From Trigonopsis variabilis (Eukaryota > Ascomycota > Trigonopsidomycetes > Trigonopsidales > Trigonopsidaceae): 64,000 nt of DNA. Made by a program: the position numbers and the translations under genes. This document shows positions 16,806 through 50,660 of the stretch, piece by piece; the first letter of the stretch is position 1, and each line of letters opens with the position of its first letter. The notes below the pieces were generated by a model. The model made no database searches. It was not told the origin of the DNA and saw only the letters and a list, made by a program, of their open reading frames with translations. Location: the NCBI GenBank assembly GCA_003707065.3, contig PPXM03000006.1, positions 248,001-312,000 of the forward strand, in the 5' to 3' direction.

Positions 16806-17245
16806 GCTTTTCTGGTCCACAATCATCCCCTCTACCTGGCTATAAATGTCGGGCTTCCTTTATTGGGTTTGCTGGATAGCAAGACTGAGTCTATGCGACT
16901 CAGAGAGTGTATTATGTTTTATTTATTTATTGTATTATGTATCCAACTTCCTTTAGTATGTATCGTCTACCTGGTAAAGGCTATGTTGCCATTGATCGAT
17001 GCCTCTCGTAAATAGACGCTTCTCGTAATTCTTGTATTCTTGCATGAGATAAATATGTCAGTCCTTGCTAGGTGTGCTATAGCTTGATTATAACTGCTCC
17101 AGTGCACTACTTTACTGGTTTCTGTAGTGCATAGTGTGCGCATTACCGAACACATTCCAGCAACAACCTCAATCAAGCTTCCTGTCACAATCCAAAACGA
17201 AAAAAGAATAAAGTAAATCCAAAAAAAATAGCAAAAAAGAAAGTT
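16806..17245. other. intergenic region
   Basis: 3' flank of the CBM48 gene and 3' side of the tRNA-Trp gene (minus strand). AT-rich with poly-A runs that are T-runs on the tRNA strand. No ORF of note. Confidence 0.5.
17221..17238 (-). terminator. RNA polymerase III terminator of tRNA-Trp
   Basis: On the minus strand the tRNA 3' end is followed within 8 nt by a run of six T (17238-17233) and shortly after by eight T (17228-17221), the usual Pol III stop signal. Confidence 0.75.
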
Positions 17246-17337
17246 GACACGGACAGGAATTGAACCTGCAACCATTCGATTGACCCTCGTACTAGACGAC
17301 GCTGGAGTCGAAAGCTCTACCATTGAGCCACCGCATC
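17246..17337 (-). tRNA. tRNA-Trp(CCA) with a 21-nt intron
   Basis: The full cloverleaf can be drawn: acceptor GATGCGG / CCGTGTC (two G-U pairs), D arm GCTC-AATGGTA-GAGC, anticodon stem TTCGA / TCGAA, loop CT-CCA-G, T arm GCAGG-TTCAATT-CCTGT. Anticodon CCA is at 17305-17303. The intron (17301-17281) starts one base after the anticodon, at the canonical 37/38 site. Mature length is 71 nt before CCA addition. The internal A and B boxes are present in the D and T arms. Confidence 0.95.
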
Positions 17338-18249
17338 ACTTGTTGTTGTCGCTATGTCTTGCTAGCACTATTACACCTATTATTGCTTACTAAGTTTGGT
17401 AGTTACTTTTGCCCTGCACTTTTACTTAATTTTTTTCTCTTCTTTGGTAGTTTTGAGTTTGAGCTTTATAATATTTCTTGCAAAGTGTCAAAGTCTTGCG
17501 GACCTTTGATACAGGTGAACAAAGTTGTCATGTCTATCCTGGTTATCCTGTTCTGTCTGTCAGTAAAACCTAAGAAATTCATCCTCACGCTTCTCCAAAT
17601 GATGACATCCAGAAATCAATTTCTCTTGACAGGCTAATTGGGGCGAGAAAAGTACAGAGCAAGTGGAGCGCATGTACGGGCCAATTATGGCCAAGTGTGA
17701 TAGCAGTCGGTAGGGTGTCAGGAACGAGAGAATCAATGTACATGACAGTTGAAACCACACAGAGTGGTTTTCCGCAAAGCCTTCATCTTCTAGCCATGAG
17801 ATACGTGTACATATCCTAAGAAACAGCTGTCTGAGTAGTACATGGAATACACAAGACAGAATACACAATACCTTCCACAACAACCATGTTAATATATTAT
17901 ATCATAAATGTGTCACTAGCAGATCAACAGTTCTAAATAGCTCCTCAAAGAGAGTCTCTAGTAGCATGTCAGACAAGATCAGCGGATGTGTCCAACACCA
18001 CTTTGAGGAGCAGGAGAGAGTCTGGCATCTAAGGCTAACACGACTACTTCAGGGAACACGAACGCTACCAAACAACTGGTGAAAAGAAAATCTTAAGAGC
18101 TTAAAATCCCTAGAAATTAAGGCGGCCGCATAAGACGAGAAGAAGTTATCTGATCTCGTCTCGTCGTAACCTGACGCAAATGACGTTACCGCTATTTGCT
18201 GAATCATCCATTTCCACATTCACCCTTTATACACAAACAGTTCGACACA
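17338..18249. promoter_or_regulatory. intergenic region and Dabb-gene promoter
   Basis: Upstream of the tRNA 5' end and of the Dabb-domain gene. Only short, unrelated ORFs. An inverted repeat AGACGAGA / TCTCGTCT with a 13-nt loop lies at 18133-18161, about 90 nt before the Dabb ATG, followed by another TCGTCG copy, and may be an operator. Confidence 0.45.
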
Positions 18250-47327: not shown

Positions 47328-48376
47328 TCACTTGTGTTTGGCAAAGATGGTAAGGACCTTCTCGATTTCACCTGCACTTCCGAGCCAAACGCCCGTTCGG
47401 TCGTGGATATGAGCAGGGACTTTGTCGAGGATATGTTGGTGACCATCGGTAGCTATGCCACCGGCTTGCTCAATAAGCATGGCCATAGGGAAACCTTCAT
47501 ACAAGAGACGCAGTTTGCCGTTCGCACTCTTCTTATCGCCAGGATAAGCGAAAAGACCGCCGTAGAGGATGGTACGATGGACATCAGCAACCATAGAACC
47601 GATGTAACGAGCAGAATAGGGCTTTCCTTCAGTGGGGAACTTGAAAGAGTGGAAGATCTCCTTGGTGGCATCATCCCAGTACATGCTATTGCCTTCATTG
47701 ACAGAGTAGATCGATCGCTTAAAAGGAAGTTTGAGGTTGGGGTGAGTAAGGATGAATTCGCCTATAGACGTGTCTAGGGTGAATCCATTGACGCCATTAC
47801 CGGTTGTCAAAACAAGGTTGGAGCTGGCACCGTACATGGTATAGCCAGCAGCGATCATATCACGACCAGAGCGAAGGACATCGGCTTCAGATCCTTGGGA
47901 ATGGTCGGGCTAAAAGTTAGAAGACACACGGAAGCAATACATACCAATCGGAAAATACCAAAGATGGTACCAACACTGACGCCAGCATCAAGGTTACTCG
48001 ATCCATCAATGGGATCGCAAACAACAGCGTATCGGCCATCGCCCGGGAAAATGATCAGCTCTTCTTGTTCCTCCGAGACTAGAACCTTCACTTTCCCACT
48101 GGCCTTCATGGCATTGACAAAGATCTCGTCGCCAATCACGTCCAGCTTCTTCTGAGCATCTCCGGTCGAATTGGAGCCACCAGCAAGACCAAGGAGATTG
48201 ACAAGAGTGGCGCGTCGAATGTTGTACGCAATAGCCTTGAAAGCAAATTGCAGACTATTCAAAAGGATGGTGAAGTCACCAGTAGCAGCTGATCCAGCCT
48301 TTTGCTGCTCGGTGAGGATGAACCTGGTCAAGGTTATAATATCAGTTTCAACGGGAGCTCCAGTTTGAGAAGACAT
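47328..48376 (-). CDS. FBP1: fructose-1,6-bisphosphatase
   Basis: Removes the 1-phosphate of fructose-1,6-bisphosphate in gluconeogenesis. Exons 48376-47945 and 47909-47328 around a 35-nt intron give 337 aa (yeast 348). The active site is clear: metal site EEQEEL and DPIDGSSNLDAGVSVGT, then TGNGVNGFTLD, RYIGSMVADVHRTILYGG, and KLRLLYEGFPMAMLIEQAGG. The N-terminus is MSSQTGAPVETDI; there is no Pro at position 2, the residue used by the yeast GID Pro/N-degron. Upstream (minus-strand sense) are a TCACGTGA box at 48548-48555 and CCGGC/GCCGG repeats. Confidence 0.96.
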
Positions 48377-48779: not shown

Positions 48780-48837
48780 TTTTCCTTCCCTCAACTGCGA
48801 TCATGTCTGGTAAGTCTTCAATGTTGCTTAAACAGGT

Positions 48838-48923
48838 CCTTTTCATGATGATCCAACAAACAATTTTCAAACTAGAGTATATGAATCTAATGATCATAGT
48901 TTTTTACACTGATATCTAAAAGG
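48838..48923 (+). ncRNA. candidate box C/D snoRNA 1 (orphan)
   Basis: Box C ATGATGA at 48845-48851, box D CTGA at 48909-48912, terminal stem CCTTTT (48838-48843) with AAAAGG (48918-48923). It lies inside the intron 48810-48958, about 40 nt before its branch site. I could not match its guide sequence to rRNA at the correct spacing. Confidence 0.65.
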
Positions 48924-49051
48924 CCTTGACCTTTGTCGAGTCTGAATGCTAACTATAGTTACGGCCTGATATTTGTAGAATATAGTCGATTCTTTGTCTA
49001 TTTAGTAATGAAAAGGTAAGTGCATCACTGTTTGATTGTCCAGGATATAAG

Positions 49052-49139
49052 ACTGTGCGGAGATGATAAAAAATAACAAGTTGGAATTACCTGCTGAACT
49101 TTTCTGTGGATAACGTTAGGCTGCTTTCCTGAGCACAGT
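49052..49139 (+). ncRNA. box C/D snoRNA 2, predicted guide to 18S U578 (snR77 type)
   Basis: A perfect 7-bp terminal stem, ACTGTGC / GCACAGT, encloses box C-like ATGATAA (49063-49069), D' CTGA (49094-49097) and D CTGA (49129-49132). The guide before D' (49079-49091, AGTTGGAATTACC) pairs over 13 nt (one G-U) with the 530-loop segment GGUAAUUCCAGCU of 18S rRNA. The base five nucleotides upstream of D' faces the U of GGUAA, yeast U578, the known snR77 / SNORD65 site. Intron 49016-49184. Confidence 0.8.
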
Positions 49140-49204
49140 TATCTGGACATGACATATTTTCTTATTTTGATGCTAATCTTCTAGTGAGTTTTTTTTGTTT
49201 GTTT

Positions 49205-49303
49205 AGTCGCTCTTTTCTGATGACTCTTGCACTGGGCACCGATATATATTATATGAGTGACAGGCATTTAGTGGGCCTAGAAAACCCACGTTACTGATTG
49301 ACT
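49205..49303 (+). ncRNA. candidate box C/D snoRNA 3 (orphan)
   Basis: Box C TGATGA at 49218-49223 and box D CTGA at 49294-49297, with a short AGTC/GACT closing stem. Internal hairpin GTGGG ... CCCAC near the 3' side. No target recognised by eye. Confidence 0.55.
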
Positions 49304-49357
49304 TATTGGACTTGCTCCTTTTACAATGACTGGTAGAGCCAAACTAACATAATTTAG

Positions 49358-49455
49358 TGTTTTTGATGATTGACTCTTGCGTAGATGTCTCAGTTTGGAA
49401 ATGATGTTTGTGATGATTTTGGAATTTTAAAGACAAGCATATGTCTGAACTCGAT
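49358..49455 (+). ncRNA. box C/D snoRNA 4, predicted guide to 18S A28 (snR74/U27 type)
   Basis: Box C TGATGA at 49364-49369, a C'-like GTGATGA at 49410-49416, and box D CTGA at 49445-49448. The guide AGACAAGCATATG (49431-49443) is exactly complementary over 13 nt to CAUAUGCUUGUCU near the 5' end of 18S rRNA. The fifth base upstream of box D (49440) pairs with A28 in yeast numbering, the known target of snR74 (human U27). Its intron boundaries are not clear. Confidence 0.82.
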
Positions 49456-49530
49456 TGAAGAGAAAATCCATGTCTGAAACGTCGCCTTTTTTCATATTTT
49501 ACTATAAAGGTGAGCCTATCCATTAGCGGA

Positions 49531-49637
49531 CTCTAGTCTATAATGATGAATATCCACAACTCACGACGGTCGACTGCGTCCAATTGGACTTTGATGAGAA
49601 TCGCCTGTGACAAGGCGTGGTGCTGAATATTACAGAG
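49531..49637 (+). ncRNA. candidate box C/D snoRNA 5 with 25S complementarity
   Basis: Box C ATGATGA (49543-49549), C'-like TGATGA (49592-49597), D CTGA (49623-49626), closing CTCT/AGAG. The segment CTCACGACGGTC (49560-49571) is complementary to the conserved large-subunit rRNA sequence GACCGUCGUGAG. A clean D' box after it is lacking, so the exact methylation site is not predicted. Inside intron 49510-49679. Confidence 0.65.
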
Positions 49638-49798
49638 TCTTTGTTTTTTCTCTGCCTCAACTAACATCAGACAATTTAGGTATATGGGGACTATCTCCGC
49701 TGTAATGACTGTGAAATACAGAATGCCCATATTATAAATACTCCCGTGTTTAACGTACATCACTCTCTTTGGACGTATCTTGCCGCCCTTTAGTTTAC

Positions 49799-50660
49799 TT
49801 AATTGGCCTTGTGCCGGCCTCTCTTTGACCTTGCTCGAGTCTTCTGAAACTCCTCCTCGGTAGGCTCCTCTAGCGACTCGTCGGCCACGCCATACTTTGC
49901 TTCCAATTTCTCAAACAGACTACTCATTCTCTGGTTCTGGCGAGACCGGATCAAAGCTGTCAGTGACTCCTCATCTTTGATTTTTTTGTCGACTCCCAAC
50001 GATTCTGCTAGTTGCTTGGCTTCTTTGGCTTCTTTCTTCGCCGCTCGCAGTCGTTTCTTTTGCTTGCGAAGCCCATCCTTTTCATATCGTCGATAGCTCT
50101 TGACAGATTTATCCTTGATTGCCTGGTCAATGATCTTGCAGAATCGATCATAGTCTTCCTGAGGGTCTGAATGTAGAACATTCTCGAAAATAACGTCCAT
50201 GTCGCCTTCAGATTCGCGGTACCACTTGAGGACGTCAGCTTCTTCCTCTCCCGATGCTGCACTCTGTTAGCCTGCTTTCCCTACCCAGCTTACCTCTGTA
50301 TTCCTTTTTATCTTCTTCAATCATTTTTTTGGTCAAAGTCTTTGCGTACATCGTTTTAAAGAATTCGCTCCATGAGAACCCATCACCATCGTCTTCGAGT
50401 TCGGCTAACGAGCCTGTCCTATCATATCGTTCCCGTCGCTTGGGATTTTCTAGCACCGAATAAGCAAACGTAATTTTTTGAAACTCCTTGGTCATCTCTT
50501 CCCGCTTCTCAGCGTCCACTTTATCGGGATGAGTCTTTAGTGCCTGTCTTCGATAGGCTCGCCGGATGTCTTTGATATCGCACGATTTGTCAATGCCCAA
50601 AACTTCATACGGGTTTATTTCTTGGAATTCGTCCACCAGATCTTCGTTTATGTCTGCCAT
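49799..50660 (-). CDS. DNAJC9-like J-domain protein
   Basis: Exons 50660-50294 and 50256-49799 around a 37-nt intron give 274 aa (human DNAJC9 260). The J domain is at residues 15-85: NPYEVLGIDKSCDIKDIRRA, HPDK, then KITFAYSVLENPKRRERYDR. The second part, EEEADVLKWYRESEGDMDVI and DPQEDYDRFCKIIDQAI, is the DNAJC9-specific region that in humans chaperones histones H3-H4 as an Hsp70 co-factor. The C-terminus is very basic. The acceptor used is the second AG after the CTAAC, the only one keeping YRASGEEEADV in frame. Confidence 0.9.

Follow-up and report, generated by a model that had tools for sequence, protein, structure and literature searches.

Fungal snoRNA cluster I and its predicted spliced non-coding host gene in a budding yeast

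Are the five box C/D snoRNA candidates that a first-pass annotation placed at 48780..49700, beside FBP1, carried in the introns of a non-coding host of the UHG/GAS5 kind, or are they cut from an unspliced polycistronic precursor? That annotation had set such a host against the rule that C/D clusters of yeasts are usually unspliced. The rule holds for Saccharomyces and its close relatives, but in the other fungi analysed cluster I is wholly or mostly intronic (PMC3596301; PMC2780460 and PMC5033589, both cited here, like PMC8469720 and the Blastobotrys paper below, for part of their text). We analysed the locus within a window of 64,000 nucleotides, the whole stretch of DNA to which plain coordinates refer, and conclude that it is very probably (about 0.9) a spliced, non-coding host gene carrying fungal snoRNA cluster I (snR78-77-76-74-73). 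This figure is for the cluster and the splicing of its host; the nested splicing order and the exonic snR74 discussed below lie outside it. The cluster is flanked by two minus-strand genes, FBP1 (47328-48376) and a DNAJC9-like gene (49799-50660). In FBP1, the ORFs flanking a 35-nt candidate intron with donor GTATGT match the N- and C-terminal parts of FBPase. In the DnaJ gene, the ORFs flanking a candidate intron of 37 nt (donor GTAAGC) match DnaJ and DNAJC9 domains.

All five candidates are present on the plus strand at 48.8-49.7 kb, where a covariance search with Rfam matched five elements with outermost limits of 48841 and 49628:

48841..48921, plus strand: snR78-like C/D snoRNA (Rfam RF01176, 35.1 bits, E 0.0025; below the cut-off of 48)
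49054..49140, plus strand: snR77-like C/D snoRNA, snoR77Y (Rfam RF01178, 42.4 bits; below the cut-off of 52)
49216..49301, plus strand: snR76 C/D snoRNA (Rfam RF01209, 64.3 bits; above the cut-off of 55)
49402..49484, plus strand: snR74/U27-like C/D snoRNA (Rfam SNORD79 38.4 and SNORD27 37.9 bits; below the cut-offs of 47 and 52)
49536..49628, plus strand: snR73 C/D snoRNA (Rfam RF01207, 61.6 bits; above the cut-off of 37)

The gathering score is reached by two of the five, snR76 and snR73, while the snR78-like, snR77-like and snR74-like elements stay below it. The snR76 element is the sole genome match at E <= 0.001 (best 56 of 560 candidates scored). Along the locus the elements run 78-77-76-74-73, collinear with cluster I (snR78-77-76-75-74-73-72) with snR75 and snR72 absent, and this agrees with the published order in other fungi (PMC3596301). 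The first-pass annotation had recognised a C/D cluster but missed its conserved identity as snR78-72.

We compared the D-like boxes with the 18S rRNA of the same genome, which is readable for its first 717 nt; the rDNA is N from there on (C5 from 345001 to the end of the read stretch at 350000). The D' guide of the snR77-like element forms a 13-nt duplex with this 18S opposite U573 (own numbering), and that of the snR74-like element a 13-nt duplex opposite A28, each equalled in 0 of 300 shuffles. U573 corresponds to Um575, the snR77 site in Neurospora, and A28 is given as the snR74/U27 site (PMC2780460). No family named snR74 is among the Rfam matches at the locus, and we assign the fourth element to snR74 on the grounds that its D' guide points at this A28. 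The remaining 12 of 14 D-like boxes gave shuffle p >= 0.13 against the 717 nt, as expected for guides with other targets. Since the rDNA is N beyond this point, the large-subunit (LSU) guides of snR78, snR76 and snR73 are assigned from their Rfam matches. Orthology to the cluster I members is thus backed by an 18S target for snR77 and snR74, and by one thing, the Rfam match, for snR78. The closing stems described earlier can be drawn but are weak (p 0.01-0.84, or 0.03-0.29 with wider flanks), the terminal stem of snR76 being the weakest, and given these p values they carry no claim here.

Neither snR75 nor snR72 gave an Rfam match at the locus at E 10. In the 11.35-Mb genome, the best of 10 snR75 matches scored 15.7 bits against a cut-off of 40 (best 56 of 1,796 candidates scored), and 8 of 14 control genomes also give matches in the same loose search. 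In Y. lipolytica and Euascomycetes, snR78 and snR72 have become one fused RNA (PMC3596301). The snR78/72 double guide of Y. lipolytica and Pezizomycotina is marked by a D guide directed at the LSU site of snR72. At the gathering score, Rfam returned one tRNA and no snoRNA from 280 kb of other stretches. Elsewhere in the genome, a relative of U14 (SNORD14) at C8:367827-367936 scored 54.2 bits, below the cut-off of 64. The window also holds a minus-strand tRNA gene (17243-17338) with an apparent intron of ~25 nt and an anticodon that ARAGORN leaves uncertain.

To describe the splice signals, we counted donors as GTRAGY and acceptors as CTAAY-N(1-15)-YAG over 48780-49760, using patterns chosen after the locus was seen. 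The plus strand has four donors (GTAAGT at 48810, GTAAGT at 49016, GTGAGT at 49184 and GTGAGC at 49510) and five acceptors, giving four ordered pairs whose branch point and acceptor sets end at 48958, 49184, 49357 and 49670 (or 49679); the minus strand gives one pair. The resulting model leaves out the fifth acceptor-like motif (48887), which falls within the snR78-like element:

48780..48809, plus strand: exon 1 of the predicted host RNA, with a pyrimidine-rich start, ending ATGTCTG next to donor GTAAGT; 5' end provisional
48810..48958, plus strand: predicted intron 1, 149 nt, branch point GCTAAC, acceptor TATAG (consensus sites)
48959..49015, plus strand: predicted exon 2, 57 nt, ending ...AAAAG, delimited by predicted sites
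49016..49184, plus strand: predicted intron 2, 169 nt, internal intron of the putative nested pair, branch point GCTAAT, acceptor TCTAG
49184..49357, plus strand: predicted intron 3, ~174 nt, external intron, its donor sharing G49184, branch point ACTAAC, acceptor TTTAG
49358..49509, plus strand: predicted exon with the snR74-like RNA, 152 nt, ending TATAAAG
49510..49670, plus strand: predicted intron 4, 161 nt (170 nt with the acceptor at 49679), branch point ACTAAC
49680..49760, plus strand: predicted last exon, starting at 49671 or 49680, 3' end provisional, converging on the minus-strand DnaJ gene

The ordered splice signals of the first reading are borne out by both controls. A four-pair chain was seen in 0 of 20,000 order-1 Markov simulations and in 0 of 1,064 further slices of 980 nt, which overlap and were taken on both strands from the window and from 200 kb of contig C1; the highest number among these slices was two, in seven of them. 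Four of the five snoRNAs (snR78, 77, 76 and 73) lie within predicted introns, so that the intronic placement proposed earlier stands while its count of three does not. The geometry of the four introns is similar: donor and box C are 34-45 nt apart, box D and acceptor 44-60 nt. Among 21 non-overlapping candidate introns of coding genes in the window and 200 kb of C1, some of them doubtful, 10 have GTRAGY donors and 16 have CTAAY branch points, fractions that are not free of bias, as candidates were first selected by the looser GTRNGY and CTRAY. The donor and branch-point types of the host introns are common to these candidates, including those of FBP1 and the DnaJ gene.

A long ORF, which the first-pass annotation had named as evidence against its view of a region without coding potential, is absent: the longest stop-free run in 48780-49700 is 54 codons on the plus strand and 62 on the minus strand. 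It is extremely improbable that the locus is a protein-coding gene or an accidental set of C/D-like motifs. An ATG starts in exon 1, but the spliced frame that it opens ends after five codons (MSVTA). A coding gene is ruled out because the stop-free runs, at most 62 codons, are short, and the Rfam and 18S matches argue against chance motifs. The sequence gives good support to a multi-intron non-coding host of UHG/GAS5 type, splice motifs being present and a long ORF absent, with the departure that one of the five snoRNAs looks exonic. With its orthologous snoRNAs in collinear order, the locus is an unexceptional fungal cluster I whose host is probably of the UHG type. The pathway that we infer for it would begin with transcription of the host; four snoRNAs would then be freed by splicing, debranching and exonuclease trimming down to the C/D snoRNP. 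The mature snoRNAs would direct 2'-O-methylation of rRNA at 18S U573 and A28 (by pairing) and at LSU sites (by homology).

The same snoRNA order is found in the cluster of S. cerevisiae, and snR74 lacks its own GTRAGY donor. Both observations would also suit an unspliced polycistronic precursor that is cut between the snoRNAs by RNase III (Rnt1), as in S. cerevisiae, with the splice-like motifs as relics, and at 49327 there is a single weak hairpin of the [AU]GNN type, which has 5 Watson-Crick pairs. However, all four splice sets are intact and hairpins of the AGNN type do not mark the intervals between the snoRNAs in excess. With at least 5 Watson-Crick pairs there is one at the locus, compared to a mean of 1.15 per 981-nt slice of the window, and there is none with at least 6 (mean 0.4) or at least 7 pairs (mean 0.14); since this background is low, the lack of enrichment is weak evidence. 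In addition, the best HIS4 matches of this yeast fall outside Saccharomyces. On the intact splice sets and the hairpin counts, we do not favour a precursor cleaved by Rnt1 and consider it quite improbable.

Within the spliced host, snR74 stands apart. A search for GTRAGY donors from 49185 to 49509 found none, and the one looser GTRNGY donor there, at 49271, is inside snR76. Because of this absence snR74 appears exonic (49358-49509), and we think it rather likely that it is released from an exon. According to the cited part of PMC5033589, only one snoRNA across clusters I and II is exonic in Y. lipolytica, and exonic and intronic members are mixed in cluster I of Candida.

The introns of snR77 and snR76 have one base in common. 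G49184 is both the last base of the snR77 intron acceptor and the first base of the snR76 donor GTGAGT. Removal of the snR77 intron joins ...AAAAG to TGAGTTTT, which recreates GTGAGT from G49015 of the upstream exon. If the snR76 intron were removed first, the product would read CTA^TG and the snR77 acceptor would be destroyed. In the description of (D1,2) stwintrons given in the cited part of PMC8469720, the unit starts with GGT and an internal intron splits the external donor between G and URWGY. The locus shares both features, with GGT at 49015-49017 and a donor split between G and TGAGT, G49015 and TGAGT coming together once the internal intron is gone; here, each of the two predicted introns holds a snoRNA. 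These features suggest that the two introns are probably a (D1,2) stwintron in which the snR77 intron is spliced out ahead of the snR76 intron. The internal snR77 intron would leave first and rebuild the external donor, so that the snR76 intron can follow. Whether this amounts to a snoRNA-bearing (D1,2) stwintron in cluster I with obligate 5'-to-3' splicing, such that snR76 can be freed only after snR77, is in our judgement an even bet.

A comparable arrangement, 'nested' splicing with a negative-size exon, is published for cluster II (snR57-55-61) of Candida (PMC5033589, in the part cited), where likewise one G is shared and the donor is rebuilt by the G of the upstream exon. The Candida case is backed by RNA-seq, whereas the present one concerns cluster I and is read from sequence alone. 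The second nested pathway of that source seems unavailable here, since taking out the snR76 intron first yields CTA^TG.

Across 528 kb of strand, 2 of 332 acceptor-like motifs overlap a donor by 1 nt, this locus counted. The other instance, on contig C1 (L015:7052), has no snoRNA match and was judged to be chance; its sole Rfam match at E 1, to a bacterial leader, falls far short of the cut-off. The overlap at 49184 could thus be chance as well, and the host could be spliced in the ordinary way, with snR77 and snR76 in one large intron (49016-49357) or with snR74 intronic through weak sites. A single donor with alternative acceptors is allowed by PMC3596301, and an acceptor-like ACTATAAAG lies upstream of 49510. 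Against such splicing, both overlapping sites fit the consensus and keep the usual spacing from their snoRNAs, the last base of the upstream exon is the G that (D1,2) splicing requires, and snR74 lacks an upstream GTRAGY. We regard this variant as unlikely, though well short of improbable, and retain the nested order as the probable one.

In its families, their order and its non-coding multi-intron host, the locus resembles the intronic cluster I of Yarrowia lipolytica, Candida and Neurospora crassa (PMC3596301; PMC5033589 and PMC2780460 in part). The missing snR72 (shared with many fungi), the exonic-looking member and the lost exon are also common to other fungi, as far as these sources go. 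What differs is the missing snR75 and the nested junction between snR77 and snR76. Cluster I is all intronic in Euascomycetes, Basidiomycota and Rhizopus oryzae. In Archiascomycetes and in some hemiascomycetes, Saccharomyces and its kin excepted, it lies mostly in single introns. It is not spliced in Saccharomyces and its near relatives, and the same survey reports lost exons and introns that directly adjoin one another (PMC3596301). Published precedents exist for clusters in introns outside Saccharomyces, for exons that are small or missing, for nested splicing, for the loss of snR72 and for members in exons (PMC3596301, with the cited parts of PMC5033589 and PMC2780460). Neurospora hosts are called UHG-like in PMC2780460, and the cited part of the Blastobotrys genome paper gives 33 C/D snoRNAs and 914 introns and does not go into clusters. 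The likeness to mammalian UHG/GAS5, taken over from the fungal papers, would lie in a non-coding host with one snoRNA per intron; the snoRNA content differs, and one member here looks exonic. By titles and abstract openings, none of the papers listed on cluster I and snoRNA stwintrons (15 of 90 in one listing) describes this locus.

The best-scoring HIS4 match is from Magnusiomyces paraingens (62% over 97% of the query), and the top identity among the best 120 of 2,595 matches is 67% over 79%, from Ogataea angusta. These matches place the yeast near Magnusiomyces, Geotrichum, Trichomonascus, Lipomyces and the like, yeasts that branch early among budding yeasts. The snR76 target is one that we take, from its family, to lie on the large subunit. 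The locus leaves the general view unchanged and extends the record of intronic cluster I outside Saccharomyces and its kin by a budding yeast that is only distantly related to them. As a compact locus that would combine ordinary introns, a nested pair and a probably exonic snoRNA, it may be useful for testing the course of exon loss. If true, the obligate order would couple the dosage of two guides for rRNA methylation, one directed at 18S and the other at the large subunit.
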